In this document: piece after piece, positions 35,316 to 54,698 of the stretch
Numbering within the stretch: position 1 is the first letter of the stretch
Layout: each line of letters begins with the position of its first letter
DNA from: an uncultured Gammaproteobacteria bacterium
GTDB lineage: Bacteria > Pseudomonadota > Gammaproteobacteria > UBA4575
Length of the DNA stretch: 64,000 nucleotides
NCBI GenBank assembly: GCA_951812785.1
Contig: OX638335.1
Location: forward strand, 647,501-711,500
Direction: 5' to 3'
Notes under the pieces: generated by a model
Database searches by the model: none
The model's input: only the letters and a program-made list of their open reading frames with translations
What the model was told of the DNA's origin: nothing
Position numbers and translations under genes: made by a program

Positions 35316-35786
35316 ATGAGTGCCATTCTGGAGCCAGTTGAGCCGAATTATCGCTTGATGGATTTATGTGATCTGGAAAGCATTATGCGTATTGAAAATC
35401 GTGCTTATCAATTCCCTTGGAGTCAGGCAATTTTCCAGGACTGTATTAAGGCTGGTTATCATTGCTGGGTGGCGGAGTTGGACGCTGAAATTATCGGCTA
35501 TGCAGTATTCATTAATGCTGCACAAGAATGCTATCTGTTAAATTTATGTATCAATCCAACGCTGCAAAAAAGAGGGCTAGGGCGAAAGTTGCTTACAAGT
35601 GTATTGAATAACGCAAAAGAATATAATGCAACTTGTGTATTTTTAGAGGTGCGCCCATCCAATAGGCAGGCAATTGAGTTATATGAATCTGAAGGGTTTA
35701 ATGAAGTGGGAATTCGTAAAAATTATTACCCTGCAACTCACGGAAGAGAAGATGCAATTATTTTTGCAAAAGAAATTGGATGTTAA
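35316..35786 (+). CDS. rimI: Ribosomal protein S18 alanine N-acetyltransferase
   Basis: 156 residues, GNAT fold. The start DLCDLESIMRIENRAYQFPW and the acetyl-CoA loop (QKRGLGRKLLTSVLNNA), then VFLEVRPSNRQAIELYESEG and RKNYYP, are all typical of RimI. Third gene of a leuA-UDG-rimI run. It marks the left edge of the defence island. Confidence 0.9.
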   Translation: MSAILEPVEPNYRLMDLCDLESIMRIENRAYQFPWSQAIFQDCIKAGYHCWVAELDAEIIGYAVFINAAQECYLLNLCINPTLQKRGLGRKLLTSVLNNAKEYNATCVFLEVRPSNRQAIELYESEGFNEVGIRKNYYPATHGREDAIIFAKEIGC

Positions 35787-35893
35787 TTGATGTGCTTTAA
35801 TCGGGTGGGTGTTAATAATTAGGTCGCTAGCAGAATCAAGGAGTAGTAACAATACATACAGATCAGATCTGACTAATACATATAAACTGTTAA

Positions 35894-37336: not shown

Positions 37337-37402
37337 TAGATGATCCTAAGTTATTGTTTTTCTCTAAACAATCTAATGAAGAAAACTGGATTGTAAAAGC
37401 TA

Positions 37403-37645
37403 TTTATCGTTGTTGATTGCCCAATATTCCTCTATTCTCTCAGTATCATTTTGGTGAGTAAAGCTATGACTGATGAAATTTTGACTTTGAAATAGGTTGC
37501 TGAGTACCTGAAGCTAGCCGAAAAGACTACTTATCGCTTGGCAGCAGAGGGTAAGCTGCCAGGCTTTAAAGTGGGGGGGAGTTGGCGGTTTAAGAAAGAA
37601 GATGTCCAGAAATGGATAGAAGAACAAAAAGATAAGGGGAAATAG
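37403..37645 (+). repeat. Direct repeat, copy 1 (promoter plus HTH gene)
   Basis: From TTTATCGTTGTTGATTGCCC through the excisionase-like gene, this segment is highly similar to 39331-39574. The repeats are about 1.9 kb apart and flank the rhuM locus. Confidence 0.85.
37466..37645 (+). pseudogene. Excisionase-like HTH protein with amber stop at codon 10
   Basis: The frame reads MTDEILTLK, TAG (37493-37495), then VAEYLKLAEKTTYRLAAEGK and LPGFKVGGSWRFKKEDVQKW, a MerR/excisionase-type helix-turn-helix. The intact paralogue at 39395 has GAG (Glu) at the position of the TAG, so a single G to T change inactivated this copy. Such HTH genes often sit in front of type I hsdM genes. Confidence 0.85.
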
Positions 37646-37735
37646 CGCTATGAATTATCGTTTGCTAAACATTAAAAATCAGTCGATAAGACAGCTAGGG
37701 ACAGGTATCAAACGTCTTCAAACAGGAATAACAGT

Positions 37736-37985
37736 ATGACCAGTATGCAACAACGCGCCGAACTGCAACGCCAAATCTGGCAAATTGCCAACGATGTGCG
37801 CGGCTCTGTGGATGGCTGGGACTTTAAACAATATGTTCTCGGCACGCTGTTTTATCGCTTTATCAGTGAAAACTTTGCCAACTATATAGAAGGTGGAGAT
37901 GAAGGCATTAACTATGCTGAGCTTGAAAACCATGTAATCACCGATGACATCAAAGACGATGACGGCCCGAATGACGGCAAAAATG
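37736..37985 (+). pseudogene. hsdM: HsdM N-terminal fragment (older type I RM system)
   Basis: The start MTSMQQRAELQRQIWQIAND then VRGSVDGWDFKQYVLGTLFY and RFISENFANYIEGGDEGINY is the HsdM N-terminal helical domain of a type I system different from the one at 39603. It breaks off after HVITDDIKDDDG, where a REP hairpin and a RAYT fragment follow. The AdoMet-binding domain is absent. Confidence 0.85.
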
Positions 37986-37998
37986 GGGAATTCTCAAC

Positions 37999-38024
37999 AC
38001 GGGCGAACACACAGGTTCGCCCGT
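37999..38024. repeat. REP-like hairpin
   Basis: ACGGGCGAAC, loop ACACAG, GTTCGCCCGT: a perfect 10-bp stem directly before the RAYT fragment, which is the normal position of the REP sequence recognised by such transposases. Confidence 0.85.
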
Positions 38025-38025
38025 A

Positions 38026-38253
38026 CCGAGGATTGTGCAATGGTTTAAAACCATGACAACCAATGCGTACATTGATGGTGTCAAACATCATTATTGGAAA
38101 CCATTTTACAAACGATTATGGCAACGTAATTATTATGAGCATATTGTCCGTAATGAGGCTGATTTAAACCGTATTCAACAATACATTAAAAACAATCCTG
38201 CCCTCTGGCAACAGGATGCATTGCACCCGAAGCAGGCAGAACAACATGGTTGA
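38026..38253 (+). pseudogene. REP-associated tyrosine transposase (RAYT), C-terminal fragment
   Basis: The frame reads IVQWFKTMTTNAYIDGVK then WKPFYKRLWQRNYYEHIVRN and IQQYIKNNPALWQQDALHP. The LWQRNYYEHIVRN segment is the C-terminal catalytic-tyrosine region of Y1 transposases. The N-terminal HUH region is absent. The remnant lies between the hsdM fragment and rhuM. Confidence 0.85.
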
Positions 38254-39298
38254 TCATATTAAGCCAAATCTAAGCCTGCAAGACCAAACCACGGAATTTC
38301 TGCTATATACCGCGCCCAATGGCGAGGTAAAGATTGAGGTGCTGTTAAGTAATGAAACCCTTTGGCTGACGCAGGCGCGCATGGCGGCACTGTTTGGTGT
38401 GCAGCGGCCAGCGATTACCAAACACTTAAGAAATATCTTTGAAAGCAATGAGTTAAAAGAAGATGTGGTGTGTTCCATTTTGGAACATACCGCTGAACAC
38501 GGGGCCATTCCGGGGAAAAAACAAACTCAAAACGTAAAATACTACAACCTCGATGCGGTAATCTCAGTGGGGTATCGCGTCAACTCTAGTCAGGCAACCC
38601 AGTTCCGTATTTGGGCGACCCAGCGAATCAAAGAATATATCACCAAAGGCTTTGCCATGGATGATGAGCGCCTTAAAAACGGTCAGTACTTTGGTAAGGA
38701 TTACTTTAAAGAGCTGCTGGAACGGGTGCGTTCTATTCGCGCCAGTGAACGGCGGATCTATCAACAGATTACCGATATCTTTGCTGAATGCAGTATTGAT
38801 TACGACCCCAACTCTGAAACCACGCGTTTGTTTTACGCGCATGTGCAAGATAAGTTTCATTTTGCCATTACCGGCCATACCGCGGCAGAAATTATTTCAC
38901 TGAAAGCAGACGCCAGTAAGCCCTTGATGGGCATGACGACCTATAAAAATGCACCTGATGGTCGGGTGCTGAAGTCAGATTCAACCATTGCCAAAAATTA
39001 TTTAGCTGAGGCGGATATTAAAAAGCTAGAACGTGCTGTGTCGGCTTTCTTTGACTATATCGAAGGGATTATCGAGCACCGTAACAGCTTCACTATGGAG
39101 AGTTTTGCTGAAAGCGTGAACAAGTTTTTGACTTTTAATGAGTATCAGGTTCTGGAAGGCTACGGAACCGTGACCAGTAAGCACGCAAAGCAAAAAGCCA
39201 TTGCTGAATATGACAAGTTCAACAAGCAACAACACATCGAATCTGATTTCGACCGCGAAGTGAGAAAGCTACTGCAAAAAAAGGACACAGAGGGATGA
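38246..39298 (+). CDS. rhuM: RhuM family protein
   Basis: 350 residues from the ATG at 38246 (MVDHIKPNLSLQDQTTEFLL). The frame is open further upstream, but that part belongs to the RAYT remnant. Family blocks: LSNETLWLTQARMAALFGVQ (winged-helix-like DNA-binding region), KYYNLDAVISVGYRVNSSQA, TQFRIWATQRIKEYITKGFA, then the C-terminal Fic/DOC-like region (DGRVLKSDSTIAKNYLAEAD). RhuM genes are common inside type I RM operons; their function is unproven. The last four bases overlap an hsdR start (ATGA), confirming that it belonged to the older RM operon. Confidence 0.85.
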   Translation: MVDHIKPNLSLQDQTTEFLLYTAPNGEVKIEVLLSNETLWLTQARMAALFGVQRPAITKHLRNIFESNELKEDVVCSILEHTAEHGAIPGKKQTQNVKYYNLDAVISVGYRVNSSQATQFRIWATQRIKEYITKGFAMDDERLKNGQYFGKDYFKELLERVRSIRASERRIYQQITDIFAECSIDYDPNSETTRLFYAHVQDKFHFAITGHTAAEIISLKADASKPLMGMTTYKNAPDGRVLKSDSTIAKNYLAEADIKKLERAVSAFFDYIEGIIEHRNSFTMESFAESVNKFLTFNEYQVLEGYGTVTSKHAKQKAIAEYDKFNKQQHIESDFDREVRKLLQKKDTEG

Positions 39299-39339
39299 CA
39301 GAATACAAAACCATTGCCGAGTCCAATAACTTTATCGTT
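39295..39339 (+). pseudogene. hsdR: HsdR N-terminal stub of the older RM system
   Basis: The start MTEYKTIAESNNFIV is the normal opening of an HsdR subunit. After about 15 codons it runs into the direct repeat (TTTATCGTTGTTGATTGCCC), and the frame closes soon after. The rest of this hsdR has been replaced by the second RM operon. Confidence 0.7.
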
Positions 39340-39574
39340 GTTGATTGCCCAATATCCCTTTATTCTCTCATATGGTTTTTGAGGGGATAAAGACATGAGT
39401 GACGACATATTGACCTTGAAAGAGGTTGCTGAGTATCTAAAGCTGGCCGAAAAGACGGCATATCGCTTGGCAGCAGAAGGTAAGCTGCCAGGCTTTAAAG
39501 TGGGTGGTAGTTGGCGGTTTAAAGAATCAGATATCGATAAATGGATTACCGAGCAAAAGAAGCGTGTTGGATAG
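39331..39574 (+). repeat. Direct repeat, copy 2 (promoter plus HTH gene)
   Basis: Begins TTTATCGTTGTTGATTGCCC, as at 37403, and is similar through the HTH gene. The junction falls inside the hsdR start codons, which themselves contain AACTTTATCGTT. A recombination or duplication end point is likely here. Confidence 0.85.
39395..39574 (+). CDS. Excisionase-like HTH DNA-binding protein (59 aa)
   Basis: MSDDILTLKEVAEYLKLAEK then TAYRLAAEGKLPGFKVGGSW and RFKESDIDKWITEQKKRVG. The helix-turn-helix (LKEVAEYLKLAEKTAYRLA) and wing (GFKVGGSWRF) are typical of MerR/excisionase-like small regulators. GAGGGG lies upstream of the ATG. The gene stands 28 bp before hsdM and may regulate the RM operon. Paralogue of the broken copy at 37466. 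Confidence 0.85.
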   Translation: MSDDILTLKEVAEYLKLAEKTAYRLAAEGKLPGFKVGGSWRFKESDIDKWITEQKKRVG

Positions 39575-39602
39575 TGAATAAAAACAATAGGAAAAGACTT
39601 TT

Positions 39603-41066
39603 ATGATCACGGGTGAAATTAAAAATAAAGTAGATCAGATTTGGGGAGCATTCTGGTCTGGTGGTGTATCTAACCCTCTATCTGTTATTGAGCAAATCAC
39701 TTACTTGTTATTCGCTAAACGGCTTGATGAAATTCATACTGCAAAAGAGGCTCAGGCTAATTTATTGGGTGAAGTAATTACTGACCCTATATTTGAAGAA
39801 GGGCAGGAGCATTTACGTTGGTCTCGCTTCAAAGATTTTGAACCTGAGCGTAAGTTCAATATTTTCAAGGATGAAGTCTTTCCCTTCATCAAATCTCTAA
39901 ATGGTCGTGCAGGCAGTTCTTACACCAAATTCATGAAGGACGCGGTGTTTATCATGCCTAACCCTGCACTTTTGGATAAGGTCGTCAATATGATTGATGA
40001 CATTCCTATGAAAGATCGTGATACCAAGGGTGACCTGTATGAATACATGTTATCCAAAATAGCTACGGCAGGTCAAAACGGTCAGTTCCGAACACCTCGT
40101 CATATTATTAAAATGATGGTTGAGCTGACTGCACCAACTCCAAAAGATATTATCTGTGATCCAGCATGTGGTACATGTGGATTTTTGGTATCGGCAGCAG
40201 AATATCTTGAAGATCATCATAAGGAAATACTTCGAGACGATGACTTGAAAGAGCATTTTCATCATCACATGTTCCATGGATCAGATTTTGATTCTTCTAT
40301 GCTGCGTATTGGTGCAATGAACATGACTCTGCACGGAATTGACAATCCACTGATTGAAGATAGGGATTCATTAAGTGAAGACCATGCAGATAAACGTGAT
40401 GCCTATACTTTGATACTGGCTAATCCGCCATTCAAAGGATCATTAGATTATGACGGTACAGCAAAGTATTTACTGCAAGTCAGCAAAACTAAAAAGACAG
40501 AACTTCTATTTATCAGCCTGTTCCTCAAGCAACTAAAAGCTGGTGGACGCTGTGCCTGTATAGTTCCTGATGGAGTATTGTTTGGTGCTTCTAAGGCTCA
40601 CCAACAATTGCGTCAAGCATTGGTGGAAGATCAAAAGCTTGAGGCTGTTGTCTCAATGCCCTCTGGTGTATTTAAACCTTATGCAGGTGTATCCACCGCC
40701 ATCCTGATTTTTACCCGCACAGATTCAGGGGGAACAGATAAAGTCTGGTTTTATGACATGCAAGCTGATGGTTTAAGCCTTGATGATAAGCGTGATGAGA
40801 TTGAAGACAACGATATCCCCGATATTATTGAACAGTATCACCAGTACAAACAGGGCAAGGGTGATTTCTCAGATAAAAAAGCCAAAGCCTTTACGGTCGA
40901 TAAGCAGGATATAGCCGATAACAAATATGATCTTTCTATCAATCGCTATAAAGAGATTGAGTATGAAGATGAGGTTTATGATTCACCGTTAGTAATTTTG
41001 GATAAGTTGGATGCTTTAGAAGATGAAATTCAAAGTGATTTGAAAGAGTTGAGGGTAATGTTGTGA
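39603..41066 (+). CDS. hsdM: Type I RM methyltransferase subunit HsdM
   Basis: 487 residues, intact. HsdM N-terminal domain (IKNKVDQIWGAFWSGGVSNP, then SVIEQITYLLFAKRLDEIH). AdoMet motif I reads DPACGTCGFLVSAAEYL, with Cys where most HsdMs have Gly or Ala. Catalytic motif IV is NPPFKG. It methylates adenine together with HsdS. The start has AGGAAAAG upstream. The stop overlaps the hsdS GTG start. Confidence 0.95.
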   Translation: MITGEIKNKVDQIWGAFWSGGVSNPLSVIEQITYLLFAKRLDEIHTAKEAQANLLGEVITDPIFEEGQEHLRWSRFKDFEPERKFNIFKDEVFPFIKSLNGRAGSSYTKFMKDAVFIMPNPALLDKVVNMIDDIPMKDRDTKGDLYEYMLSKIATAGQNGQFRTPRHIIKMMVELTAPTPKDIICDPACGTCGFLVSAAEYLEDHHKEILRDDDLKEHFHHHMFHGSDFDSSMLRIGAMNMTLHGIDNPLIEDRDSLSEDHADKRDAYTLILANPPFKGSLDYDGTAKYLLQVSKTKKTELLFISLFLKQLKAGGRCACIVPDGVLFGASKAHQQLRQALVEDQKLEAVVSMPSGVFKPYAGVSTAILIFTRTDSGGTDKVWFYDMQADGLSLDDKRDEIEDNDIPDIIEQYHQYKQGKGDFSDKKAKAFTVDKQDIADNKYDLSINRYKEIEYEDEVYDSPLVILDKLDALEDEIQSDLKELRVML

Positions 41067-42270
41067 TTAATTCCGCTTCTCTTAATGATGTCGCAGAAGT
41101 TATAAGAGGAGTAACTTTCTCTAAAGCTGAAGGTTCACAAGTTCCATCAAATCAAATGATAGGTTGCCAGTAATTCGTGCTGGTAGCATCCAGCAAAGGC
41201 TTATATTAGATGAAGGTCAGATATGGGTTCCTGCAAACAAAATAAAAGCACATCAGCTTATACAGAAGAACGATATAGTAATGTGTACTTCATCGGGAAG
41301 CTCTGATTTGGTAGGGAAGTGTGCTAGGTCAAGACAGAGTTGGAATGGATCATTTGGTGCTTTTTGTGCTGGAATTAGAGCAGATGAAACAAAATGTAAT
41401 GCATCATATTTATATCACTTTTTAAGTTCGCCAATTTTTAGAAATTGGACAAAAAAATCTTCTGGAGCAAATATTAAGAATATTAGAGCTTCAGAACTAG
41501 CTGTCTTCAGAATCCCACTCCCACCAATGGAAGAGCAAAAACGCATTGCTGCGATTTTGGATAAAGCGGATATGCTACGCCGTAAACGCCAAAAATCCAT
41601 TGAACTAACTGACCAACTCCTTCGCTCTGTCTTTCTTGATATGTTCGGTGACCCGATCACAAATCCTAAAAATATAAAAACCGCAACAATCTCTGATATT
41701 GGTCAGGTAATCACAGGAAACACACCTTCTAGAAAGAAGCCTGAATATTATGGTAGCGATGTAGAATGGATAAAGTCAGATAATATAAATACACCATATC
41801 ATTACTTAACAAAAGCAGAGGAATGCTTATCAGACAAAGGGGTGCTCGTAGGAAGAACTGTTCCAGAAAACTCTATACTTGTTACCTGTATAGCGGGAAG
41901 TAAAGATTGTATTGGAAATACTGCGATAGCAGATCGAATGGTAGCGTTTAATCAGCAGATTAACGCTATTGTCCCAAATAAAAAAATTCTAACTCTGTTT
42001 TTATACGCTCAACTAGCCTTTAACAAAAGGTTGGTTCAAAAGGCATCAACTGAAAGCATGAAAGGTATGGTTAGTAAATCTAAATTCTCAGACATTGAAG
42101 TTTTGTTGCCCCCAATGGAGGATCAAGAAAAATATGCAAAATATTTCCTAAAAGCTATAGATAAAATAGAAACCATGAAGATTGCTGAAAGTAACTATAA
42201 CAATTTATTTAACTCTCTTACGCAACAAGCCTTTAACGGTGAACTAACCAAACAAACGGAAGCGGCATAA
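41063..42270 (+). pseudogene. hsdS: Type I RM specificity subunit HsdS, N-terminal frameshift
   Basis: The GTG at 41063 overlaps the hsdM stop and gives INSASLNDVAEVIRGVTFSK then AEGSQVPSNQ, a normal start of a target-recognition domain. The frame then closes at 41171. One missing base in an A-run near 41152 would join it to the frame of LPVIRAGSIQQRLILDEGQI, which continues to 42270. Two target-recognition domains are visible, the first ending with the conserved helix PLPPMEEQKRIAAILDKADM. The second contains ISDIGQVITGNTPSRKKPEY. Without the first 35 residues, recognition of one half-site may be lost. It could also be a sequencing error. Confidence 0.85.
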
Positions 42271-42283
42271 AAGGTAGCCAAGG

Positions 42284-45200
42284 ATGACGCAGAATAATAA
42301 CAGCAACTTTTCATTTTTATCCCAGCACTGGGGTTTCTTGTTGCAAGATGCGCAACAGGTGGAAAGCTATTCTTTACGTGATCCACGTGCTGCCGCTATT
42401 TATGCCCGCCGAACTTTAGAAATCTCCCTCAAATGGTTATTTGCGAATGACACGGCTTTAAAAGCCCCTTATGAAAAAAGTCTGGCGGCAATGATTCATG
42501 AGCCAACCTTTGCCCAGAATATTAAAAGGGGATTATTTCACGACATTAAATTTATTCATCGTCTCGGTAATATTGCCGTACATGGTGATAAAAATATATC
42601 TGAACAAGAAGGTTTAAAGGCAACCGTTGCATTGCATCAATTCTTGGGTTGGCTTGCACGTGTTTATACTCGTGGTGGAGCAAAGCCAGATCAGTTTCAA
42701 ATCTCATGGATTCCCAAATCAAAACCAGATGCACCTCATCTCTCGGTAGCACAACTTGAAAAAATTCAAGCAGACTTAACGGCTAAAGATGAAGCCGCTG
42801 CTATAGCCAAAGAAAAACTCTCCCAAACAGAAAGCGAACTTGCTGCTCTTAAAGAACAATTAGCATTATTACAAGAAGTCAAAGAGACCAACAAGAAAAC
42901 TATTGGTAGCAGTGAATACACAGAAGCCCAAACACGTGAGTTAATTATCGATGTTATGTTGCGTGAATCTGGTTGGAATCCAAAAGCAGAAAATGTTGAA
43001 GAATATGAAGTATTGGATTGTATGCCAACTGCCACTGGTGAATGTACAGGCAAGGGATATGTAGATTACGTCTTATGGGGTGACGACAACAGACCTCTCG
43101 CACTGGTCGAAGCTAAACGTACTCGAAGCGATGCACAAATAGGTAAAAGGCAAGCAGAACTTTATGCGGATTGTTTGGAAAAACATCATGGTCAGCGCCC
43201 GATTATTTATTACTCGAATGGCTATACCACTTGGATGTGGGATGATCAGTTTTATCCACCTAGAGAAGTACAGGGATTTGCAACTCGTGATGAATTGCAG
43301 TGGAAATTAAATCAGCGTACTGGTCGTCAAGATTTAAGTATTCAGCAACCAAAAAAAGAAATCACAGGGCGTTACTATCAGATGGAAGCTGCCGCACGTG
43401 TTATGGAGCATTTTGGTACTGAGCGAAAACGAAAGAGTCTTGTTGTTATGGCTACGGGTACTGGAAAAACTCGTTTGTCAATTGCCTTGGTTGATATGTT
43501 GTTGCGTGCTGGGTGGGCAAGGAAAGTGTTGTTTCTTGCTGATCGCATTGCGTTGGTAAATCAAGCTAAACGAGAATTCAACCGTCACCTTCCTCATGTA
43601 TCTGTTGCTAGCCTGCTTGATAAGACTGAAGAAGATGCACGGGTACTCTTTTCTACCTATCCAACAATGCTCAATTGTATTGATGGTACAAAGAAGGATC
43701 AGAAAGAAACTTTCAGTGCAGGTCATTTTGATTTGATCATTATTGATGAAGCTCATCGTTCTGTATATCAAAAATACGGCGCAATCTTTGATTATTTTGA
43801 TTCACTTTTGTTGGGATTGACTGCCACACCAAGAGGAGAAGTAGATCGTAATACTTATAAATTGTTTGAACTTGATGATCACCAACCGACATACTCCTAT
43901 GAACTATAGCAAGCAGTGAATGACGGCTTTCTCGTACCTCCTCGTGCAATTTCAGTACCTTTAAAGTTCCAAAGAGAAGGGATCAAATACAAAGACCTCT
44001 CTGCCGAAGAACAGGAAGAATATGAGTTACAAGAGCAGTTTCATGATGATGAAGGCAATTTGAAAGAAGAAATTGGTTCGGCTGCACTTAACAAATGGCT
44101 CTTCAATAAAGATACAGTCAACAAAGTGCTTATGCACTTGATGGAAAACGGTATTAAAGTAGAAGGTGGTGATAAGTTAGGCAAAACTATTATCTTCGCT
44201 AAAAACAAAAAACATGCTGAATTCATTGTTGAGCAATTTGACCTCAACTATCCATCTATGTCTGGAAAGTTCTGTCGTAGAGTTGATTATTCAGTTAAGT
44301 ATGTACAAAGCCTGATTGATGACTTCAGTGTGAAAAACAAAGACCCGTTTATTGTTGCTTCAGTTGATATGCTGGATACAGGAATAGATGTACCAGAAGT
44401 TGTAAATTTGGTGTTCTTTAAACTTGTTCGCTCTAAAACTAAATTCTGGCAGATGATTGGACGTGGTACACGTTTATGTGAAGACTTATTTGAACCAAAC
44501 AAAGATAAGCAAGAGTTTGTTGTCTTTGATTATTGCCAAAACCTTGAGTTCTTTGATGCTAATCCAGAAGGTTATGATTCAGGTGTTCAGGAATCTGTAA
44601 AACAGAAAATATTTAAACGCCGTCTAGAATTATCTATTGCATTGCAGAATGCTAAGCCAGAAGATGAAGATATGGCTAGTTTTGCTAATAGCTTAAAAGA
44701 TCAAATGCATGATGTTGTCTCGGTTATGAATCTTGACAACTTTATTGTTCGTAAACAGCGTAAAGACGTAGAGACATTTGCTGATCGTGATCGCTGGGAT
44801 TCATTGAGTGAAGATGATCAGACTACATTAAGCAGTAAGGTTAGTGGATTACCATCGGCAGATGATGACGATGAATATTCAAGGAGATTTGATTTGCTTA
44901 TATTGAATTTGCAATCTGCAATCTTGCAAAATAGTAAAGCACAAGAAAATTATAGAATAAAAGTTCAGGAGCTTGCCAAAGGACTGGAAGATAAGTCGGC
45001 TATACCTAGTGTTGCCGCTCAGATGGAATTGATAATGGAATTACAGACTGAGCAATGGTGGCAAGATGTTACCTTGCCTATGCTGGAAAATGTAAGAATC
45101 AGTCTGCGTGATCTGACGAGGTTTATTGATAAAGATGCTGGTTTGGTTGATGTCTTTACTAATTTTGAAGATGAGTTTGATGGCGATTCAACCACGCACG

Positions 45201-45709
45201 AGATTGTAAAAAGTGATCCCAAATTAAAAGACTACCGTAAAAGAGTACAGCGTTTCATTAATGAGCATCGAGATCATGTCACTATCAGGCGATTAAGAAA
45301 CAATGAGCCTGTTTCTCCTACAGATGTTTCCGCACTTGAAGAGATTCTGTTTGCTGAGGATGGAGCAATACCAAGAGATGAATACGAGCATATATTTGGT
45401 GAGAAACCATTAGGTGTTCTGGTTCGATCAGTTGTAGGTTTAAGTCGTAAGGCTGCGAAAGAAGCCTTCTCAGAGTTTTTATCAGAAGCACCTTTGCATC
45501 CTGATCAAATGACTTTTCTGGATGAAGTTGTTGAATACTTAGTTAAAAATGGGACTATGGAACCAAAGATCATGTTTGATACACCATTTACGCTCATTAA
45601 TGATCAGGGAATAGCGGGTATATTTGATGAAAATGAGAGTAAGAAGGTTATAGAGCTAGTGCGTCATGTAAATGAGAATGCAGTGATTGAGAAAACAGCA
45701 GGGAAATGA
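42284..45709 (+). pseudogene. hsdR: Type I RM restriction subunit HsdR with in-frame amber stop
   Basis: Two open frames in the same phase (42284-43909 and 43916-45709) are separated only by TAG at 43907-43909, within YSYEL-stop-QAVNDGFLV. Full length would be about 1,141 residues. Domains: N-terminal DUF4145-like (AAAIYARRTLEISLKWLFAN), a coiled coil (about 155-200), the PD-(D/E)xK nuclease (GYVDYVLWGDDNRPLALVEA with KR), helicase motifs (MATGTGKTRL, IIDEAHRS, TATPRGE, then VDMLDTGIDVPEV and MIGRGTR) and an EcoEI-type C-terminal domain. The stop separates motif III from the second helicase domain, so DNA translocation and cleavage should be lost unless it is read through. Confidence 0.9.
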
Positions 45710-45732
45710 TGTATATAATACAGGGATAAAAA

Positions 45733-46641
45733 ATGGAATTAAGTATAAATGACTTTGATTTTTTAGACAGTTTTGAACATTTAGGATCTCATGTTCTCGA
45801 TCAGAACGGAAAGAATAATCTTGATCTTTTTATACTGAAGATAAACGCAAATGAATTCGATTATATTTCTTTAAGAGAAAACTTGCTTGATCCGTTAATC
45901 GATTTTTCTCTATCACGAAAAGTAAAAGAGAAATATAAAGGAAAGCCAGGAACGCTATCAGCCAAAGCAAGAGATAAGTTTATTAAATACATAAATAATA
46001 AAGGCGAATTGGGAGAGTTGCTTTTATATTGTTTTCTTGAAACGCACCTTCATGCTCCAAAACTTTTATCTAAGCTTGAACTTAAAACATCAACTAGTCA
46101 CTATGTTAATGGTGCGGATGGTGTCCACTTCTTAAAATTGAAGGATGGAAGTTATCAACTCATTTTTGGTGAGTCAAAAACAATAGCAGGCTTAACTGCC
46201 GCAATTACTGATGCATTTAAGTCTATTTACCAGTTTAAAAATTGTATCAATGAAAAAGGAGATAAGAAAAGTGGTCTTCCATATGAGAAAGGGCTGATTA
46301 GCGATCATTTGGAAAAAGAAACTTTTTCAGTCGAAGAAAAACAATTTATCGAGAAAATTATTTATCCAGGTCGTGACCGTGATTTTGATGTTGATGACGC
46401 ATTTGGAATTTTTGTTGGTTATGAAATTACAATAAATGGTGAGGATAAAAAACTTTCGAATAAAGAGTTTAGAAAAAAAATAAAAACTCAAATCGAAAAA
46501 GAAATTAAGTCTTCATTTGGGCATGTAATCAAAAAAATTGAAGAATATGATCTTTGTGGCCATAATTTTTATATTTATATTTTACCTTTTACTGATTTAG
46601 ATAAAACTAGAAGTCTTATCCAGAAAGAGATATCTCAATGA
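45733..46641 (+). CDS. hamA: Hachiman defence nuclease HamA (DUF1837)
   Basis: 302 residues. The DUF1837 core is a PD-(D/E)xK-type fold: helix with GELGELLLY (91-99), then VNGADGVHF (D129) and LIFGESKTIAG (E147, K149). HamA is the nuclease effector of Hachiman, held inactive by HamB and released upon DNA damage or phage replication. The ribosome-binding site AGGG lies before the ATG, 23 bp after hsdR. The gene overlaps hamB by 4 bp (ATGA). AT content fits the neighbouring genes. Confidence 0.87.
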   Translation: MELSINDFDFLDSFEHLGSHVLDQNGKNNLDLFILKINANEFDYISLRENLLDPLIDFSLSRKVKEKYKGKPGTLSAKARDKFIKYINNKGELGELLLYCFLETHLHAPKLLSKLELKTSTSHYVNGADGVHFLKLKDGSYQLIFGESKTIAGLTAAITDAFKSIYQFKNCINEKGDKKSGLPYEKGLISDHLEKETFSVEEKQFIEKIIYPGRDRDFDVDDAFGIFVGYEITINGEDKKLSNKEFRKKIKTQIEKEIKSSFGHVIKKIEEYDLCGHNFYIYILPFTDLDKTRSLIQKEISQ

Positions 46642-49175
46642 GTATTCTTGAAGAACTATCTCAAAAAACGCTAACTGATGATTATTTCACAGAGTTGTAT
46701 AGTAAAGCAGAAAGGTGTGCTGCCGCAGACTTCTTTCAAGTAGAAAAAGAAAGTCTAGAAGATAAAGAGTTTCTTGATTTGTTGCGGTTCTCAGATATTT
46801 TGTCACGTTCAGAAGATCCTGACGCACAAAATAAAGCATATAAGATCGTCAGTCTTTTAGTAGATGATTATAAAAATAATGCATTATTCCGATCTTTTGC
46901 TGATTCTGTCCTTACCAAGTTGGGAAACTTCCCAGCGATGCATTTTCTTTCAGAATATAATCAAGAGTCTGATAGTCATTCATTAGAATTGATTCTTGAA
47001 AAATATGTAAAAGAGCAGTATCAAAAGATACCTAATAGTGAGCTAGTATTTACAGATGCACAATATAAAATATACGAAAGTTTAAGAAATAGTAATCATT
47101 TCAGCTTTTCAGGCCCAACGTCACTTGGTAAATCATTTATTATCAATTCGTTTATTCGAAATCTTATTGTTGAGGATAAAGTTAATGAAAATATAGTAAT
47201 TCTTGTACCGACAAGAGCCTTAATAAACCAAACGTTGACATATCTTAAAAAGGAATTTTCCGATGTAGAAGAGTATAGAGCCCTTTCGCACCCAACCGTT
47301 CCCGAAACATTCAGAACCGAAAAAAGCCGATATATTTTTGTATTTACTCCCGAAAGGTTAGTAGCCTATCTTTCGGATATTAGTAATCCAAAAATTGGTT
47401 ACCTTTTTATAGATGAAGCTCAGAAAGTCGTCTCTGAGAAAGATTCGCGAAGTCCTCTCTATTATCACGCAATTTTACAGGCAGAACGGAAGAGTATAAA
47501 ACTGTATTTTGCCTCTCCAAACATTCCCAATCCTGAAGTATTTCTAAAGCTTTTTGAGAAAAGCACTGATGAGGCTATCAGTATTAAAAGTTCTCCAGTT
47601 GCTCAAAATAGATACTTTCTCGATTTGCTAGATAAGCGCTGTGTACTATTTTCTGACGTGTCTAGCGAGCAAGATATCTCAGTTGATTTTACAAATAGAA
47701 ACTTTTCCGATTGGCTCAAGAAATTAAGTGGCGATCAGTCGTCTATAATATATTGCAACACTAAAGCTGACACCATTCAGTATGCTCTAAATTTTTCGGA
47801 GAATCTTCCAGATAAGAATGACGAGAAGATTGACGAAGTTATATCTGTCATTAAAGAACATCTTCATGAGCAATACTTTTTGATTAATTGCTTACGAAAA
47901 GGTGTTGCGTTCCACTTTGGTAATCTTCCTCAACGAATTAGGGCTAAAATTGAAGTCCTGTTCGTAGATAAAGTAATTGATTATGTTTTTTGTACATCAA
48001 CTCTACTGGAAGGAGTAAATCTTCCTGCCAAGAATATATTTATTCTTAATAATGCAATTGGTTTAACTCAATTTTCAGATATTGATTTTTGGAATCTAGC
48101 CGGACGAGCAGGAAGGTTAACTAAAGAGCTGTCAGGGAATATAATTTGTGCCCGGATAGAAGATAAGAAGAATAGGTGGAAAAATCCTGAGAAAGACCTA
48201 GCAGTTGTAATAAATAAAGAAATAAAACCTGTCTCGCCTTTGATTACTAATGGACAGAAAAACTTCTTCAAGAACGTTGAGGCAGCGTTGACAGGTGCTA
48301 AATTTACAAGAAAAAGCGCTTCTTCTAATGAAAAGAATGTCTGGAATCATTATGCCAATATTGCTCTTATTCATGAGATACGTTCTGATGATTCAGCACT
48401 ACGATCTAATTTTATAAAAAATAATGTAGCAGCAAAAAATATTTTACACGAAATTAGTAAATCTAACTCAGTACCAGAGAGAATATTGTCCTCTTACTCG
48501 GTAATTAAAGCTAAATACCAAAATCGTGTTTATGAGCGTGAAGATCTAGTAGAACTAGTGCTAACATCCGATATTAGTTATGACTCAGCACTAAAGAGTC
48601 TAGAGATGTTGTGTGATTTTTACTCTTGGGATGAAGAAGAGATATCTGGTCGAAACCCAATGTTCAGGTCAAGAGATAGCCTCAAGTACTTTGCTGTATT
48701 GATGTCAAATTGGATGAACTCTACACCGTTGAGCAGAATGATATCTACCTCAATCGAGTACTATACAACGCCCGCAACTATTTGGGATATAGATCAATTA
48801 ATAATTTTTAATCCCAATAATCAATATCATATTAATTTGGTTATCAACGAAATTATTTCCAATATTGATAATATTTTAAGATTTAAGTTAAAGAACTATT
48901 TTGGTAATTACTATGAATTACTAGTCGAAAGATTAGGTAAAGATGCTGCTGGAACGAATTGGGCAGAATTCCTCGAATATGGTACGACTGACTTCAGAAT
49001 TATTGAGCTACAGAATATTGGTATACCTAGACATTTGGCTAATTATCTACTTCTAAATTACGCTGAATTATTTGTTTTTAATGAAAAGGCTATGATTTCA
49101 TTTAAAAGAGACGATCTGGTAGACAGGATGAATCATAATTCAGTCGAATTTAAAGAGCTTATTGAAGTTATATAG
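46638..49175 (+). CDS. hamB: Hachiman defence helicase HamB
   Basis: 845 residues, superfamily 2 helicase. Walker A GPTSLGKS (159-166), motif Ia VPTRALINQT, motif II FIDEAQK (DEAQ at 259-262), then [20 protein letters not shown] and motif VI LAGRAGRL (487-494), as in the Ski2-like/HamB group. The C-terminal 300 residues are helical and without known motifs. HamB binds HamA and scans DNA. It overlaps hamA by 4 bp and is followed after 8 bp by the HEPN/Toprim gene. No break or missing motif is seen. Confidence 0.88.
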   Translation: MSILEELSQKTLTDDYFTELYSKAERCAAADFFQVEKESLEDKEFLDLLRFSDILSRSEDPDAQNKAYKIVSLLVDDYKNNALFRSFADSVLTKLGNFPAMHFLSEYNQESDSHSLELILEKYVKEQYQKIPNSELVFTDAQYKIYESLRNSNHFSFSGPTSLGKSFIINSFIRNLIVEDKVNENIVILVPTRALINQTLTYLKKEFSDVEEYRALSHPTVPETFRTEKSRYIFVFTPERLVAYLSDISNPKIGYLFIDEAQKVVSEKDSRSPLYYHAILQAERKSIKLYFASPNIPNPEVFLKLFEKSTDEAISIKSSPVAQNRYFLDLLDKRCVLFSDVSSEQDISVDFTNRNFSDWLKKLSGDQSSIIYCNTKADTIQYALNFSENLPDKNDEKIDEVISVIKEHLHEQYFLINCLRKGVAFHFGNLPQRIRAKIEVLFVDKVIDYVFCTSTLLEGVNLPAKNIFILNNAIGLTQFSDIDFWNLAGRAGRLTKELSGNIICARIEDKKNRWKNPEKDLAVVINKEIKPVSPLITNGQKNFFKNVEAALTGAKFTRKSASSNEKNVWNHYANIALIHEIRSDDSALRSNFIKNNVAAKNILHEISKSNSVPERILSSYSVIKAKYQNRVYEREDLVELVLTSDISYDSALKSLEMLCDFYSWDEEEISGRNPMFRSRDSLKYFAVLMSNWMNSTPLSRMISTSIEYYTTPATIWDIDQLIIFNPNNQYHINLVINEIISNIDNILRFKLKNYFGNYYELLVERLGKDAAGTNWAEFLEYGTTDFRIIELQNIGIPRHLANYLLLNYAELFVFNEKAMISFKRDDLVDRMNHNSVEFKELIEVI

Positions 49176-49183
49176 GAGTATTT

Positions 49184-50485
49184 GTGGGAACAGAAATTAC
49201 ACTCTCTATCGATAAGATCGATGTATGTTGGTCAAAAAACCATATGGGGATAGACCATGGTTTTCTGTTCCAGTCTGATGATCGAAAGCGATTAAAATCT
49301 GATCAGGTAAACTACGACTATTATGAGTCTAAGGATAACCCTGATTTGATAAAAATGGAAATGGGGTTCACAAAACCACTAAGGGATGTTGTACCACGTT
49401 TAGAGCTAATGGGGGTTACTCTCGACCAGATTCGCTTAGAATATGAACATGCAGCAGCAGACTCTTATGAGACTCGAAAGCAATTGGAAGAGTCGAGCTT
49501 AGAAAAAGTAATTTCCTGCATGCCGTTTGATGATTTCTTGGATATTATCAAACTAATTGATATCGGTAATCTTGATGGTTCATATGATAACGATAATATT
49601 GATAAAGATCCCGCAGAATATGGCGCTAAATTTATCGATGTAAATACTCTTAAAGCTATACCTCACTACGATTCTTATGATGCAATGGTCTACTCCGAGC
49701 AAAGTCTTGTATCTCATATATTAGATTTCTTGCGTCCGTATTCAGCTTTGCGCTTGTTGGCAGAGAACGAAAATAATATTCATCAAGAAGTTAAATGGCA
49801 GTATGGGCCTCTGGTTGAGAATGGTTGGGCAGATGTTTCTATGTTCCAGCCATGTGCAAGAAGGAAGCAGAAGTTCCTAATTGTCACGGAAGGGCATACT
49901 GATGTTGAAATTATTGATCTCGCTATTAGAACATTGCGACCCCAAATATATGATTATTTTAGTTTTATCGATATGACTGAGGGTCATCCATTTGGAGGAA
50001 CAGGAAACCTTCAAAAATTTGCGAAGGGATTGGCGCAAATGGATGTTCACAATCAAACCCTCTTTCTATACGATAATGATACTGAAGGTTTGTCTGCGCT
50101 TAAAAATACCAATAAATTAAATCTCCCGAGCAACATGAAGGTTGCGATGTTGCCTGACCTTGATGAGTTCAAGTCATTTCAAACAATTGGTCCATCTGGG
50201 GAGAATAAAATGGATATCAATGGTAAAGCCGTCGCTATTGAGTGCTACCTTGATTTATTTCGTTCGGAGTTACCAGACGTGCCGGTTATACGTTGGAGTG
50301 GTTACAAAGGAGATGTAAAACAATATCAAGGTGCTTTGGTGGCAAAAGAAAAATATACAAAAAAGTTTTTGAGCCATAGCCCAAATCAATTGCTGGGTAG
50401 TGACTATGATCTTTCCAAGCTGGAAAGGGTGGTAGATACTCTTTATCAGAAGTGTGTAGCGATTGCTTGTTCAGCAAAATCTTAA
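49184..50485 (+). CDS. HEPN/Toprim-domain protein, third gene of the Hachiman cassette
   Basis: 433 residues from a GTG with GGAG upstream, 8 bp after hamB. The N-terminal part (MGTEITLSIDKIDVCWSKNH, then GIDHGFLFQ) resembles the domain named HEPN/Toprim N-terminal. A Toprim fold follows: KFLIVTEGHTDVEIIDLAI (catalytic Glu236) and TLFLYDNDTEGLSALKN (D297, D299). The Toprim residues needed for metal-dependent nuclease activity are all present. Tight coupling suggests a third Hachiman component, or an independent effector sharing the operon. Not part of the two-gene Hachiman definition I know. Confidence 0.75.
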   Translation: MGTEITLSIDKIDVCWSKNHMGIDHGFLFQSDDRKRLKSDQVNYDYYESKDNPDLIKMEMGFTKPLRDVVPRLELMGVTLDQIRLEYEHAAADSYETRKQLEESSLEKVISCMPFDDFLDIIKLIDIGNLDGSYDNDNIDKDPAEYGAKFIDVNTLKAIPHYDSYDAMVYSEQSLVSHILDFLRPYSALRLLAENENNIHQEVKWQYGPLVENGWADVSMFQPCARRKQKFLIVTEGHTDVEIIDLAIRTLRPQIYDYFSFIDMTEGHPFGGTGNLQKFAKGLAQMDVHNQTLFLYDNDTEGLSALKNTNKLNLPSNMKVAMLPDLDEFKSFQTIGPSGENKMDINGKAVAIECYLDLFRSELPDVPVIRWSGYKGDVKQYQGALVAKEKYTKKFLSHSPNQLLGSDYDLSKLERVVDTLYQKCVAIACSAKS

Positions 50486-50509
50486 TACTTGCATTGGGTT
50501 GAAAGTTAC

Positions 50510-50556
50510 CTAAGGACGTAATTCCTTTGAGTCAAGCTCTCGCTGAATATTTACGA
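50510..50556 (-). pseudogene. 3' remnant of a paralogue of the 59-aa gene
   Basis: On the minus strand the last codons read NIQRELDSKELRP then TAG, parallel to NIQREIGSRALRP of the intact gene at 51396-51575. The rest is lost. The intact HNH-like gene lies between the two copies. Confidence 0.65.
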
Positions 50557-50595
50557 TTTAGGTCGAAAATAATAATTCAATTGAATCCAATTCAA

Positions 50596-51312
50596 TTACT
50601 TGAAATTTCCCATAAGCAGTCTCTTGCTTCCAAATTTCGGGTTCCATGCACCTTTTAAGCCTTGGGGAATTTCTCCATCGATTGCATACATTACTCGTAC
50701 CCAGAGGTTCCCTATATGGTGTATGTATGCTGAAGTTACGCATTGCCCATTAGTCTTATCTATCTTTGCCTCCAAATCACTACTACTGGCGAGAATTGTA
50801 TTTTCGCTATCATCAGCTATAGATGGCCCGAATACAATATAGATATTGGGATGTATTTTGCTGTTAAGTATCGCATTTGAGAATGGTTGAATATCAATTC
50901 CTTTTACTTTACCTTCGATCAGCATACAACCAAATTGCTTTACCATGTATAGATGAACATGGCGCATGAAATGTTTTGTGCAGTAGGGGAATATTTTGTT
51001 TGAACGGATATACTCACCGACAGTAATTTCTGGTTGTCTGAAACGCAATGCTTCCGTGAGATATTGCCACGCCAGATCATGTGGTTGTGTCCTGGTGTTG
51101 TTACAGAATTGGCAGAGACTAGGCTCGTATTTTAGGGCTTTTGCATCCAGACTGCCTATTTTTTTGTTCTTACGTTTGGCTGTTTGTATATAGATAGGGG
51201 CAGACTGAGAGAAATTTCCAGCCACTGACTTCAGGTCTGATTTTTTAATCTTGTGCTCACGGCTATTCGCAGTGTCACCACATATCCAGCAACTTTTATT
51301 AGTCAAATTCAT
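50596..51312 (-). CDS. HNH-like zinc-finger protein, probable nuclease
   Basis: 238 residues. Two CxxC knuckles (CWIC at 8-11 and CQFC at 67-70) bracket NSREHKIKKSDLKSV (His20), and the second is followed by NNTRTQPHD (N71, N72, H78). This is the layout of HNH endonucleases (Cys pair, His, Cys pair, Asn, His). The remaining 160 residues have no recognisable domain. It is opposite to the Hachiman genes, with about 110 bp between the stops. A host or phage DNA nuclease role is an inference. Confidence 0.6.
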   Translation of the reverse strand: MNLTNKSCWICGDTANSREHKIKKSDLKSVAGNFSQSAPIYIQTAKRKNKKIGSLDAKALKYEPSLCQFCNNTRTQPHDLAWQYLTEALRFRQPEITVGEYIRSNKIFPYCTKHFMRHVHLYMVKQFGCMLIEGKVKGIDIQPFSNAILNSKIHPNIYIVFGPSIADDSENTILASSSDLEAKIDKTNGQCVTSAYIHHIGNLWVRVMYAIDGEIPQGLKGAWNPKFGSKRLLMGNFK

Positions 51313-51395
51313 TTCCTTTTTGTGTGGCTATTTTTTATCAGAAAATTCTACGAATAGCACGTAGATTATAAACCTCTCTTCTGATGGAGTATAAC

Positions 51396-51575
51396 TCAAG
51401 GGCGTAATGCCCTTGATCCAATTTCTCGTTGAATGTTTTCGATAGATGTTAGTGCATTCCTGCGCTGATGGGTGCCCGGGTTGCTTTTCGCCAATTCATT
51501 GAAGCTCTGTCTTAATAAAACATGTAGCTCGGTTTTGTTTTTTGCGGCTAATTCAAATCTTGTTCGTAGTTTCAT
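51396..51575 (-). CDS. Small conserved-looking protein (59 aa), plasmid/ICE type
   Basis: ATG at 51575 with AAAGGAGAGTAAA directly upstream, an excellent ribosome-binding site. Product MKLRTRFELAAKNKTELHVL, ending SIENIQREIGSRALRP. Helical and basic. Genes of this kind occur on conjugative elements near antirestriction genes; here ardA is 380 bp away. A degenerate second copy of its 3' end exists at 50510-50556, which supports it being a real gene. Confidence 0.65.
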   Translation of the reverse strand: MKLRTRFELAAKNKTELHVLLRQSFNELAKSNPGTHQRRNALTSIENIQREIGSRALRP

Positions 51576-51898
51576 TTTACTCTCCTTTATTTGGAGACCG
51601 TGCCATCACGATCTTTGTAAGAGAGAGGTCAGTTCATGGATCAAGAAACCGCACTTGTTGTTGCAACGTTAGAGGAAAAGCTTGCCTCAAGAATTTTGGC
51701 AAGCTTGCGAGTTATCTAATGTCCATGTGCTTAAATCTGATTAAAAGTCTGTTTGGTATTGGTGTTCATTTTTTGTGAAGGAGAGGGATGGAATACGCAT
51801 CATGATTCATTGGTAGCGGTGGTTCCCCCCCTGTCTGGATTACGCCAAAACATGAGATTTTACGCTCACTTCCATTGTCACTCCTGCTCACTCATTTT
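51576..51898. other. Spacer with an inverted repeat, no clear gene
   Basis: Contains a perfect 9-bp inverted repeat AAGCTTGCC (51678-51686) and GGCAAGCTT (51698-51706) inside a short plus-strand frame (27 codons, MDQETALVVATLEEKLASRI) that lacks a convincing ribosome-binding site. Nothing else is supported. The region separates the divergent 59-aa gene and ardA, so both promoters should lie here. Confidence 0.45.
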
Positions 51899-51930
51899 CT
51901 GGGGTTTCTCAACCCCAAAAGGGGTGTGTT
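51899..51930 (+). promoter_or_regulatory. Mutually exclusive hairpins before ardA
   Basis: GGGGTT-TCTC-AACCCC (51901-51916) and ACCCC-AAAA-GGGGT (51912-51925) share the ACCCC arm and cannot form together. The second is followed by GTGTTTTT. The arrangement resembles a terminator with a competing antiterminator, about 30 nt before the ardA start. Confidence 0.45.
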
Positions 51931-51954
51931 TTTAAGATATTTAGGAGAAAAGAC

Positions 51955-52437
51955 ATGAACGAAGAATTAAGAGTATATGTTGCAGATTTAGCGGCTTACA
52001 ACAATGGCTATCTGCACGGTGTTTGGATTGATGCCATGTTAGACTTGGGCGAGATGCAAGAACAAGTTAGCCAGATGTTAAAAACTACCCCACTGGCGGA
52101 AGTTGCAGAAAAATATGCAATCCATGATTATGAAGGTTTTGGAGCGTATAAGGTCAGTGAATATGAAGGGCTTGAATCCGTGCATGAGGTGGCTTGTTTT
52201 CTGGAAGAATTCGGAGATGTTGCAGGCGATGTATTAGCCCATTTTGGCGACAATTTAGAAGATGCCCGAAAAGCCTTAGAGGAAAACTATAGTGGTTGTT
52301 ACAACTCCCTTGCAGGCTATGCCGAGGAGCTTATCACCGAGACCAGTGAAGTACCTGAGCATTTAGTGTTTTATATCGACTATGAATTCTATGGGGCGAG
52401 ATATGGAATTAAATGGGGATGTGTTCACCAGTGGTGA
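51955..52437 (+). CDS. ardA: Antirestriction protein ArdA
   Basis: 160 residues, very acidic, as expected of a DNA mimic. Family blocks: LRVYVADLAAYNNGYLHGVW, IHDYEGFGAYKVSEYEGLES, and the C-terminal GYAEELITETSEVPEHLVFY with IDYEFYGARY. ArdA blocks type I restriction enzymes and usually travels on conjugative elements. AGGAG precedes the ATG. Here it lies 6 kb from a type I RM operon. Confidence 0.93.
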   Translation: MNEELRVYVADLAAYNNGYLHGVWIDAMLDLGEMQEQVSQMLKTTPLAEVAEKYAIHDYEGFGAYKVSEYEGLESVHEVACFLEEFGDVAGDVLAHFGDNLEDARKALEENYSGCYNSLAGYAEELITETSEVPEHLVFYIDYEFYGARYGIKWGCVHQW

Positions 52438-52462
52438 TTGGCTGACAAGAAGTACACGTATT

Positions 52463-52482
52463 TTGGAGCCATTAGGCTCCAA
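52463..52482 (+). terminator. Hairpin after ardA
   Basis: TTGGAGCC, loop ATTA, GGCTCCAA, then TTTACTTG; 26 nt after the ardA stop. Confidence 0.7.
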
Positions 52483-52585
52483 TTTACTTGTCTTGTAGTC
52501 GTTGGATTTAGTCATAGCTATTGTGTGTTTAATGCTGCTACCCACGCATAGAGCGCGGGAAAGCCCTGGTTGTTTAAAAATATGG

Positions 52586-52614
52586 CGATATTGATATGAA
52601 GAATACCAATATCG
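52586..52614. promoter_or_regulatory. Inverted repeat upstream of the hipBA-type operon
   Basis: CGATATTG (52586-52593) and CAATATCG (52607-52614) with a 13-bp spacer, in a very AT-rich 300-bp region containing several TATATATC/GTATATCA-like stretches up to the start at 52777. A candidate operator for the XRE antitoxin; no promoter elements can be fixed with confidence. Confidence 0.35.
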
Positions 52615-52776
52615 TCAATAAACTAAACCTTCAAATAGAAGAGTATTGATGTATTAAAATAGATCAATATATTTCATGTAATATGTTATTATATATCGTA
52701 AATGTTAATGAGTTTTTGTATTGTAATATATTAGTGTATATCATCTAATTTTATAGATATAGAAAGATAGATCAAA

Positions 52777-53415
52777 ATGACTTATTTAAACGACCAGATA
52801 CTCGAAAGCCTACGTGAGGCTCGTCAAAGAAAGGGGTTTAGCCAAAGAGAGCTAAGCGCTAAGTCTGGCGTGCCGCAGAGTCATATCTCCAAGATAGAGA
52901 ATGGGGCGGTGGATTTGAGGGTGTCTAGTTTGGTCGCTCTGGCACGAGTTTTGGATTTAGAGCTTGAACTTGTTCCGAAGAAAACAGTTCCTGCTGTGAA
53001 ATCTATCGTGCGTAGCAGTACGAGTGCAGATTTGGCTAATGCGCAAAAAATGATTCAAAGAGAAATGGATCAATATAAGAAGGTTATCGCGTCCGCAACT
53101 CAAGTCTCTACCTTCGCAAACAGTGATTTGGAGAAATTAAGAAAAGCCATTGCTGACATTGACCTTTTCAAACTCGATAATTCAGCGCTAAAGGCAATTG
53201 AATCCTCAAGGATGGCTATTGAAGACGCGATGAAGCAAAGCTCTGTGAATCAATTAAAGGGTGCGATGGAGCCAAGTGAAGTTATTCAAGAAGCCATGAA
53301 AAAAGCAGTTCGTCAAATGAGTGCTCTGCGTAATTCGCTGGCACATGGCAACCATTTTCAAGAAGCTAAGACGTCTTTGCCAGCCTATAGCTTAGACGGA
53401 GGCAATGATGAGTAG
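52777..53415 (+). CDS. HipB-like XRE antitoxin with C-terminal HEPN-like motif
   Basis: 212 residues, more than twice the size of E. coli HipB. The N-terminal XRE helix-turn-helix is clear (REARQRKGFSQRELSAKSGV, then PQSHISKIENGAVDLRVSSL). A helical linker follows. The end contains RQMSALRNSLAHGNHF, in which R185-N-S-L-A-H190 fits the RNxxxH motif of HEPN proteins. It overlaps hipA by 11 bp. The HTH would repress the operon and the protein should neutralise HipA; the HEPN-like part is unusual. Motif-based inference for that part. Confidence 0.8.
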   Translation: MTYLNDQILESLREARQRKGFSQRELSAKSGVPQSHISKIENGAVDLRVSSLVALARVLDLELELVPKKTVPAVKSIVRSSTSADLANAQKMIQREMDQYKKVIASATQVSTFANSDLEKLRKAIADIDLFKLDNSALKAIESSRMAIEDAMKQSSVNQLKGAMEPSEVIQEAMKKAVRQMSALRNSLAHGNHFQEAKTSLPAYSLDGGNDE

Positions 53416-54652
53416 TAATGTCTCAACCCTCAATGTTTTTCTCTATGATGAGTTGGTCGGCACGATTACCAATGTGGGCAATGACCGCTCTTTGTTTGCG
53501 TTGACGCAAGATTATATTGAGAATACTGACCGTTCGACGCTAAGCCTTGGTTTTAAAGACTCCCTTGGCGAGCTGATCACGGACTTTAAGCCCACGCAAA
53601 CCAAGCTCCTGCCGTTCTTCTCAAACCTTTTGCCCGAAGATGAGATGCGTAGATATTTGGCTGAAAGAGCTAGTGTAAACCCCGAGCGCGAGTTTTTCTT
53701 GCTCTGGGTGTTGGGTCAAGATTTAACAGGGGCGGTCACCATCAAGTCTGTTGATGGTGAAGCGCTTCCTCCGAGTATCCGTGAGCCAGTCGATGGAGGC
53801 GAAGAATATAAAGACGGTGCGATGCGTTTTTCTTTAGCTGGAGTTCAGTTAAAATTCTCTGCCGTTCAACATTCCTCCGGAGGATTGACGATTCCTGCTA
53901 GTGGTATGGGCGGATCATGGATTGTAAAGCTACCCTCAAGTAAGTTTAAGGAGGTGCCTGAAAATGAGTTTTCCATGATGGAGCTAGCTCGAAAAATCGG
54001 CATGACTGTTCCTGAAACACAATTACTCAATATTGGGGATATTGAAAACATCCCAGATGGAATTGGGCGGTTTGGCAGCTCTTTTAGCAATTCTCGGGCC
54101 TTCGCGATCAAACGGTTTGATCGAACCGATGGCAGAGGCTCTGTTCATATTGAAGATTTTGCGCAAGTGTTTGGTGTCTATCCATATGACAAGTACAAGA
54201 AAGCCAGTATGTGCAACATTGCAGAAGTTATAGGGATCGAAGGACAGGAAGACGATATTGCTGAGTTTACTCGCAGACTGGTATTTAACACGCTCATAGG
54301 TAATGCGGATATGCATTTAAAGAACTGGTCGCTCATCTATAACGATAAGTGCTCAGCCTCTATTGCGCCAGCCTATGATTTCGTTTCAACAATCCTCTAT
54401 ATTGCGGATAAGGAAGCCGCTTTGAAAGTCAGTAGGAGCAAGAAATTCGCTGACTTCACCATGGATGAATTGTCCCATTTGGCGGCAAGGGCACGATTGC
54501 CAGAAAAGCTAGTCCTGGATACGGCAAGTGAAACAGTAGAGCTTTTCCATGAAAAATGGCAAAACGAAAAGAACAATCTGGCGCTTAATAGTGACGTGAT
54601 TGAAGCAATCGACAAGCATCTGGAAGATATTCCGGTTGCTAAAAAAAAGTAA
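53405..54652 (+). CDS. hipA: HipA-type serine/threonine kinase toxin
   Basis: 415 residues. N-terminal subdomain ([20 protein letters not shown], then [17 protein letters not shown]), the [13 protein letters not shown] autophosphorylation-loop region, [28 protein letters not shown], catalytic loop [16 protein letters not shown] and metal-binding PAYDFVST. HipA kinases inhibit tRNA charging by phosphorylating an aminoacyl-tRNA synthetase and cause dormancy. All core residues are present. Last gene of the island; prfC begins 46 bp later. Confidence 0.93.
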
Positions 54653-54698
54653 AAAACTAATGGGTACAAATTTAGATACAAATAAGGGTTCGAGTGGT

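Follow-up and report, generated by a model that had tools for sequence, protein, structure and literature searches.

A recurrent HEPN-like insert in the HipB antitoxin of a HipBA module at prfC

The locus described here raises the question of what an RNxxxH motif of the HEPN type is doing inside a HipB antitoxin, and whether the part of the protein that bears it could make the antitoxin a toxin in its own right. A sequence-only reading of the window (the whole stretch of 64,000 nucleotides that was analysed) had pointed to a 212-residue XRE/HTH protein next to an intact HipA kinase, with an RNxxxH motif at R185–H190. The protein pair was recovered by profile search (HTH_3 in the first protein, Couple_hipA and HipA_C in the second) and the motif was located as RNSLAH. 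The module was annotated as follows, with the basis of each assignment in brackets.

52644–52775, + strand: candidate HipB operator array, four imperfect palindromic repeats (repeat search; blocks recognisable in relatives)
52777–53415, + strand: hipB, long form, encoding a 212-aa HTH antitoxin/repressor (ORF; HTH_3; full-length relatives adjoining hipA)
52810–52968, + strand: HTH (XRE/Cro) domain, hipB residues 12–64 (Pfam HTH_3, E 1.9e-15)
53014–53346, + strand: inserted HEPN-like helical domain, hipB residues 80–190 (long/short HipB comparison; AF2 helices)
53329–53346, + strand: RNxxxH motif (RNSLAH, R185–H190) in hipB (conservation in 41 relatives)
53380–53397, + strand: PAYSLD tail, hipB residues 202–207 (conserved in long forms, present in short forms)
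53405–54652, + strand: hipA, encoding a 415-aa Ser/Thr kinase toxin, apparently intact (Pfam; alignment to HipA/HipT chains)

The two genes lie on the + strand with hipB upstream and overlap by 11 nt. HipA matched both of its Pfam families (Couple_hipA, E 3.7e-19; HipA_C, E 6.1e-49), and its residues S143, K175, D302, N307 and D325 aligned with active-site residues of the E. coli HipA and Legionella HipT chains. From the HipA literature, we take these to be the loop Ser, the ATP Lys, the catalytic Asp and Asn, and the metal Asp, respectively. Just 5' of hipB, four repeats of the TGAT-N-ATATC type were found at 52644–52669, 52677–52697, 52722–52742 and ∼52755–52775, and the same repeat blocks were recognisable 5' of both long- and short-form relatives; they are candidate HipB operators. 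Judged by its sequence, the region from 52777 to 54652 is thus a canonical HipBA toxin–antitoxin module. The first reading had let the antitoxin end in ALRNSLAHG, but 21 more residues follow, including the PAYSLD tail that it missed.

We then asked how strongly the motif is conserved. Long HipBs were collected from three genomes of the same family, alphaproteobacterial plasmids (14 loci), a GTDB genome scan and further genomes, and dereplication at 93% HipA identity left 41 of them. Across this set the insert (residues 80–184) had a median pairwise identity of 16%, while R185 was kept in 38, N186 in 40 and H190 in 38 of the 41 proteins. With commonest-residue frequencies of 0.91, 0.97 and 0.92, respectively, these are the top three positions of the insert, where the median position has a frequency of 0.25 and the best one after the three reaches 0.71. 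Free variation among homologues, which had been named as an outcome that would speak against the motif, was therefore not found. Because the three residues are kept so consistently at such low background identity, retention of RNxxxH is far beyond chance, and their conservation amid a drifting insert has the pattern of a catalytic or functional site. The complete motif was intact in 35 of the 41 proteins. The six broken motifs were scattered (HNALTH in L004, SNIAAH in L049, RNALAR in L046, RNNLAR in L078, HNQLVD in L162 and RDRLVH in L163), and hipA was kept in all six lineages.

A strongly conserved R(polar)x3-5H motif, as seen in the HipB insert, is a feature of the HEPN superfamily, in which R, the polar residue next to it (mostly N, D or H) and H make up an active site at the end of helix 3; RNase activity is predicted for HEPN domains that carry an RNxxxH-type motif (PMC3710099). 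When the inserts were searched in isolation, weak matches to four HEPN families were obtained, DUF4145 in 7 of 25 members (best E 0.0014), RiboL-PSP in 7 of 25 (0.0073), and HepT and Swt1 in 3 of 25 each, alongside matches to many coiled-coil families. The scores remained below the curated Pfam HEPN cut-offs, at 15.2 bits for the HepT-like family (cut-off 23.5) and 15.7 for HEPN_Swt1 (27.5). Weak matches of the insert in the PDB included SO_3166-type HEPN toxins over ∼90 positions (E 0.11–0.19). In a search of 249 genomes with the insert profile, HipBs were recovered together with three weak non-HipB matches, one of which was an MNT-linked HEPN protein (L208, 730–1203, − strand). This 158-residue protein carries RNEIAHDY, adjoins a nucleotidyltransferase gene, has a PF08780 match below the cut-off, and matches the HipB insert profile at helices 1–2 and at the motif; it may form a sequence link to the HEPN-MNT toxins, with the reservation that it had been selected as a best match.

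The extent of this similarity was limited. In hhalign comparisons of the insert with the L208 family and with HepT, only 18 columns round the motif aligned, and column shuffles that spared this 18-column block scored about as well, so that significance came only via the block. With the motif masked, the HMM showed a small excess over shuffles except for L208, which as a picked best match counts little. AF2 models were of low confidence (mean pLDDT 66 for the whole HipB and 63 for the domain alone) and placed four helices in the insert at residues 82–110, 115–129, 135–158 and 166–190 (pLDDT 56–77), with RNxxxH at the end of the last helix and no helix after it. Foldseek and VIA-align comparisons of these models with the PDB gave no HEPN match, a result that, with models this weak, does not exclude a HEPN fold; the N-terminus retrieved HTH proteins, and the domain retrieved generic helical bundles and designed helical proteins. 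The structural part of the first reading thus fared in two ways, since four separate helices were predicted at low confidence in place of one long coiled coil, but no HEPN fold was matched. The KEN domain is a known circular permutation of HEPN, and a circularly permuted HEPN with helix 4 at the N-terminus was considered as an explanation for the missing last helix.

The chief alternative to a HEPN relationship is that the insert serves HipB as a helical domain for dimerisation or spacing, in which RNxxxH is structural or contacts HipA or DNA. The end of the HEPN similarity at the motif, the generic and designed bundles returned by the fold searches, the absence of helix 4 after the motif and the position of the motif next to the presumed HipA-binding tail all agree with it. 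However, a structural or coiled-coil role leaves unexplained why R, N and H are kept at HEPN spacing while nearly all else drifts, the matches to four separate HEPN families speak against it, and the short HipBs described below need no such spacer; we regard this alternative as rather unlikely. Homology of the insert to HEPN is likely from these sequence comparisons. Because the similarity ends at the motif, all scores lay below the cut-offs and no HEPN fold was matched, we term the insert HEPN-like and place it in no HEPN family. The HEPN-like C-terminus proposed earlier accordingly stands as a domain of its own that bears a HEPN-type RNxxxH, but not as an assigned HEPN fold.

The role of the insert can be approached from HipBs that do not have it. 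Short HipBs of ∼100–113 aa, in which the HTH is joined directly to the PAYxLD tail, are encoded at more than half of the loci in the GTDB scan. The HTHs of short HipBs are 73–86% identical to that of the window over approximately residues 1–85 (69–86% for most of those in the GTDB scan, by best segment), and the HipAs paired with them are ∼70% identical to the window's HipA. On the HipA tree, one clade of 23 rows with support of 100 holds 16 short and 7 long modules, including that of the window, and the long and short states need six changes overall, five of which are forced by well-supported branches. The tree by itself does not separate gain of the insert from loss; we infer that losses dominate over gains. 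In the close sisters L048 (long) and L057 (short), the two hipB sequences match closely as far as the insert, where L057 goes straight to the tail. An ORF in the flank upstream of the L048 hipB looked ArdA-like by eye. On a Sulfitobacter plasmid (L032, 2501–3100), a long HipB with an intact RNALAH was found as an orphan antitoxin, followed by an IS6 transposase where hipA would be expected.

The tail is conserved even more than RNxxxH, with A203 and L206 kept in 41 of 41 and Y204 in 40 of 41 long HipBs. The C-terminus of E. coli HipB is reported to bind a pocket of HipA (PMC8262856), and the PAYxLD tail is by analogy the presumed HipA-binding element here. Since short HipBs without the insert keep the HTH, the tail and HipA, and since about six changes are placed on the HipA tree, the HTH and tail constitute the core antitoxin and the insert an optional accessory domain.

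Taken over all these observations, we lean, with modest confidence, towards a HipBA operon whose HipB carries a very divergent HEPN-like insert that lacks the last HEPN helix and that tunes the toxin–antitoxin complex instead of serving as an independent toxin. By analogy with known HipBA systems, HipB would repress the operon via its HTH and the upstream repeats and would hold HipA via the HTH region and the PAYxLD tail, the HipB dimer sitting on DNA and HipA being freed once HipB is lost. Within this dimer, the insert may bind, and perhaps cleave, RNA. Because RNxxxH lies some 7–15 residues before the tail, the insert, by binding or cutting RNA, could gate the grip of the tail on HipA; alternatively, the operon mRNA might be trimmed. 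RNase activity of the insert in HipB is possible from its motif. A stronger form of the proposal, in which the insert provides the antitoxin with HEPN ribonuclease activity, or with an RNA sensor, gated by HipA via the tail, the state of RNA controls HipA release, and a kinase and an RNase are combined in one operon as a catalytic-antitoxin subtype of HipBA that was repeatedly gained or lost, seems doubtful to us.

The two-effector system of the first reading goes further, making the insert an active HEPN ribonuclease and HipB a second toxin once it is released from HipA. A conserved catalytic-type motif, the RNase prediction for HEPN domains with such a motif (PMC3710099) and the location of the module beside several defence genes would suit it. 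Yet about six gains or losses of the insert are counted, hipA is kept beside a broken motif in 6 of 41 lineages, and the Sulfitobacter long HipB persists with its intact motif without hipA. A repressor-antitoxin is normally made in excess over its toxin, and an active RNase in such an excess antitoxin would need extra restraint. The claim that the antitoxin also acts as a toxin is thus unsupported, and we consider it improbable. That RNxxxH is functionless, either a chance occurrence or an inherited remnant within a linker that is degenerating, would fit an insert that is nearly free to vary elsewhere and can be missing, but is contradicted by R, N and H being kept in 38, 40 and 38 of 41 proteins and is very improbable.

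We compared the tuning arrangement with known systems. The E. coli and Shewanella HipBAs likewise combine an HTH antitoxin with a HipA kinase that has the aligned active-site residues, but the solved chain of E. coli HipB, a short protein, counts 88 residues and contains no helical insert, and E. coli HipA is only distantly similar to that of the window (E 1e-14). The hipAB genes of SXT/R391-family ICEs (R391 orf02–orf03 and ICEMprChn1) resemble the window in HTH family, PAYxLD tail, gene order and overlap, whereas their HipBs are of the short form (100–113 aa) and lack the RNxxxH insert; this link between the lineage of the window and R391 is drawn from papers and from locus L099. L099 corresponds to contig AYOZ01000034 of Marinomonas profundimaris and encodes a short HipB. 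The contig was reported to lie within ICEMprChn1, an SXT/R391 element in which attL and xis flank a hipAB-like system (PMC5122569). In R391, deletion of hipA increased ICE loss 12-fold, so that toxin/antitoxin function of its hipAB was shown only indirectly, by ICE stability (PMC4489591).

HEPN-MNT/HepT toxins of type VII TA systems share with the HipB insert an R-polar-x3-H at a helix end in a helical domain. They are, however, free-standing toxins under nucleotidyltransferase control, and their motif is followed by a final helix and often by a Y, whereas the insert of the window is embedded in an HTH antitoxin, has neither an MNT nor the final helix, and shows no sequence similarity to HEPN-MNT/HepT beyond the motif. 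Extra antitoxin domains, some of them linked to nucleic acids, are known from Hip kinases with multidomain antitoxins (HipS-HIRAN, Stl-like); HEPN is not mentioned in that survey of Hip kinases (PMC8262856). In the literature searched, which was one library, no description of a HipB with HEPN architecture was found, an absence that is not proof.

The genomic position of the module also recalls the SXT/R391 elements. In the window and in L046, L047 and L067, hipBA lies directly upstream of prfC. In congeners, a uracil-DNA-glycosylase gene and rimI (both named by eye) precede prfC; in the window these two genes are at 34.5–35.7 kb, ∼19 kb from prfC, and the interval is filled by an island of ∼19 kb of foreign genes (35316–54660) that includes hipBA. 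In L047, the island is absent and the genes run glycosylase-rimI-hipB-hipA-prfC. Since L047 has hipBA and prfC without it, and since hipBA also precedes prfC in L046 and L067, hipBA at prfC appears from gene order to be older than the island. The 5' end of prfC is the integration site of SXT/R391 ICEs (PMC5122569). The prfC of the window differs from that of congeners chiefly at the very N-terminus, as expected after integration at prfC. These features suggest a prfC-linked insertion site common to window-type hipBA and SXT/R391 ICEs. No integrase match (PF00589) was found within the window, so that the module is not assigned to an ICE, and no second copy of the att repeat of a prfC-integrating element was found there.

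The island genes occur in the order RhuM-like, type I R-M, Hachiman, HEPN/Toprim protein, HNH-like, ArdA and hipBA (RhuM and HNH by eye). The hsdR of the type I R-M system (42284–45709) consists of two same-frame ORFs split by one in-frame stop at about 43907–43909. The Hachiman pair is complete (45733–49175), with HamA (DUF1837, PADLOC E 3e-117) and the HamB helicase (E 0), and is directly followed by a gene (49184–50485) for a 433-aa protein with an N-terminal HEPN/Toprim domain (PF18871, E 1.3e-52). This protein had no PADLOC match and is possibly an uncharacterised defence effector. An ArdA antirestriction protein (51955–52437; PF07275, E 3.3e-36) is encoded directly upstream of hipBA and downstream of the R-M system.

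The recurrent HEPN-like insert in HipB is an apparently undescribed feature of an otherwise canonical HipBA module. It bears on the question of what triggers the release of HipA, since in these antitoxins a conserved site of an RNA-active type adjoins the presumed HipA-binding tail. Natural pairs such as L048 (long) and L057 (short) allow direct testing of the role of the added antitoxin domain. Should the insert prove to be an RNase or RNA sensor, the view of antitoxins purely as inhibitors would need widening to include possible effector or sensor roles.
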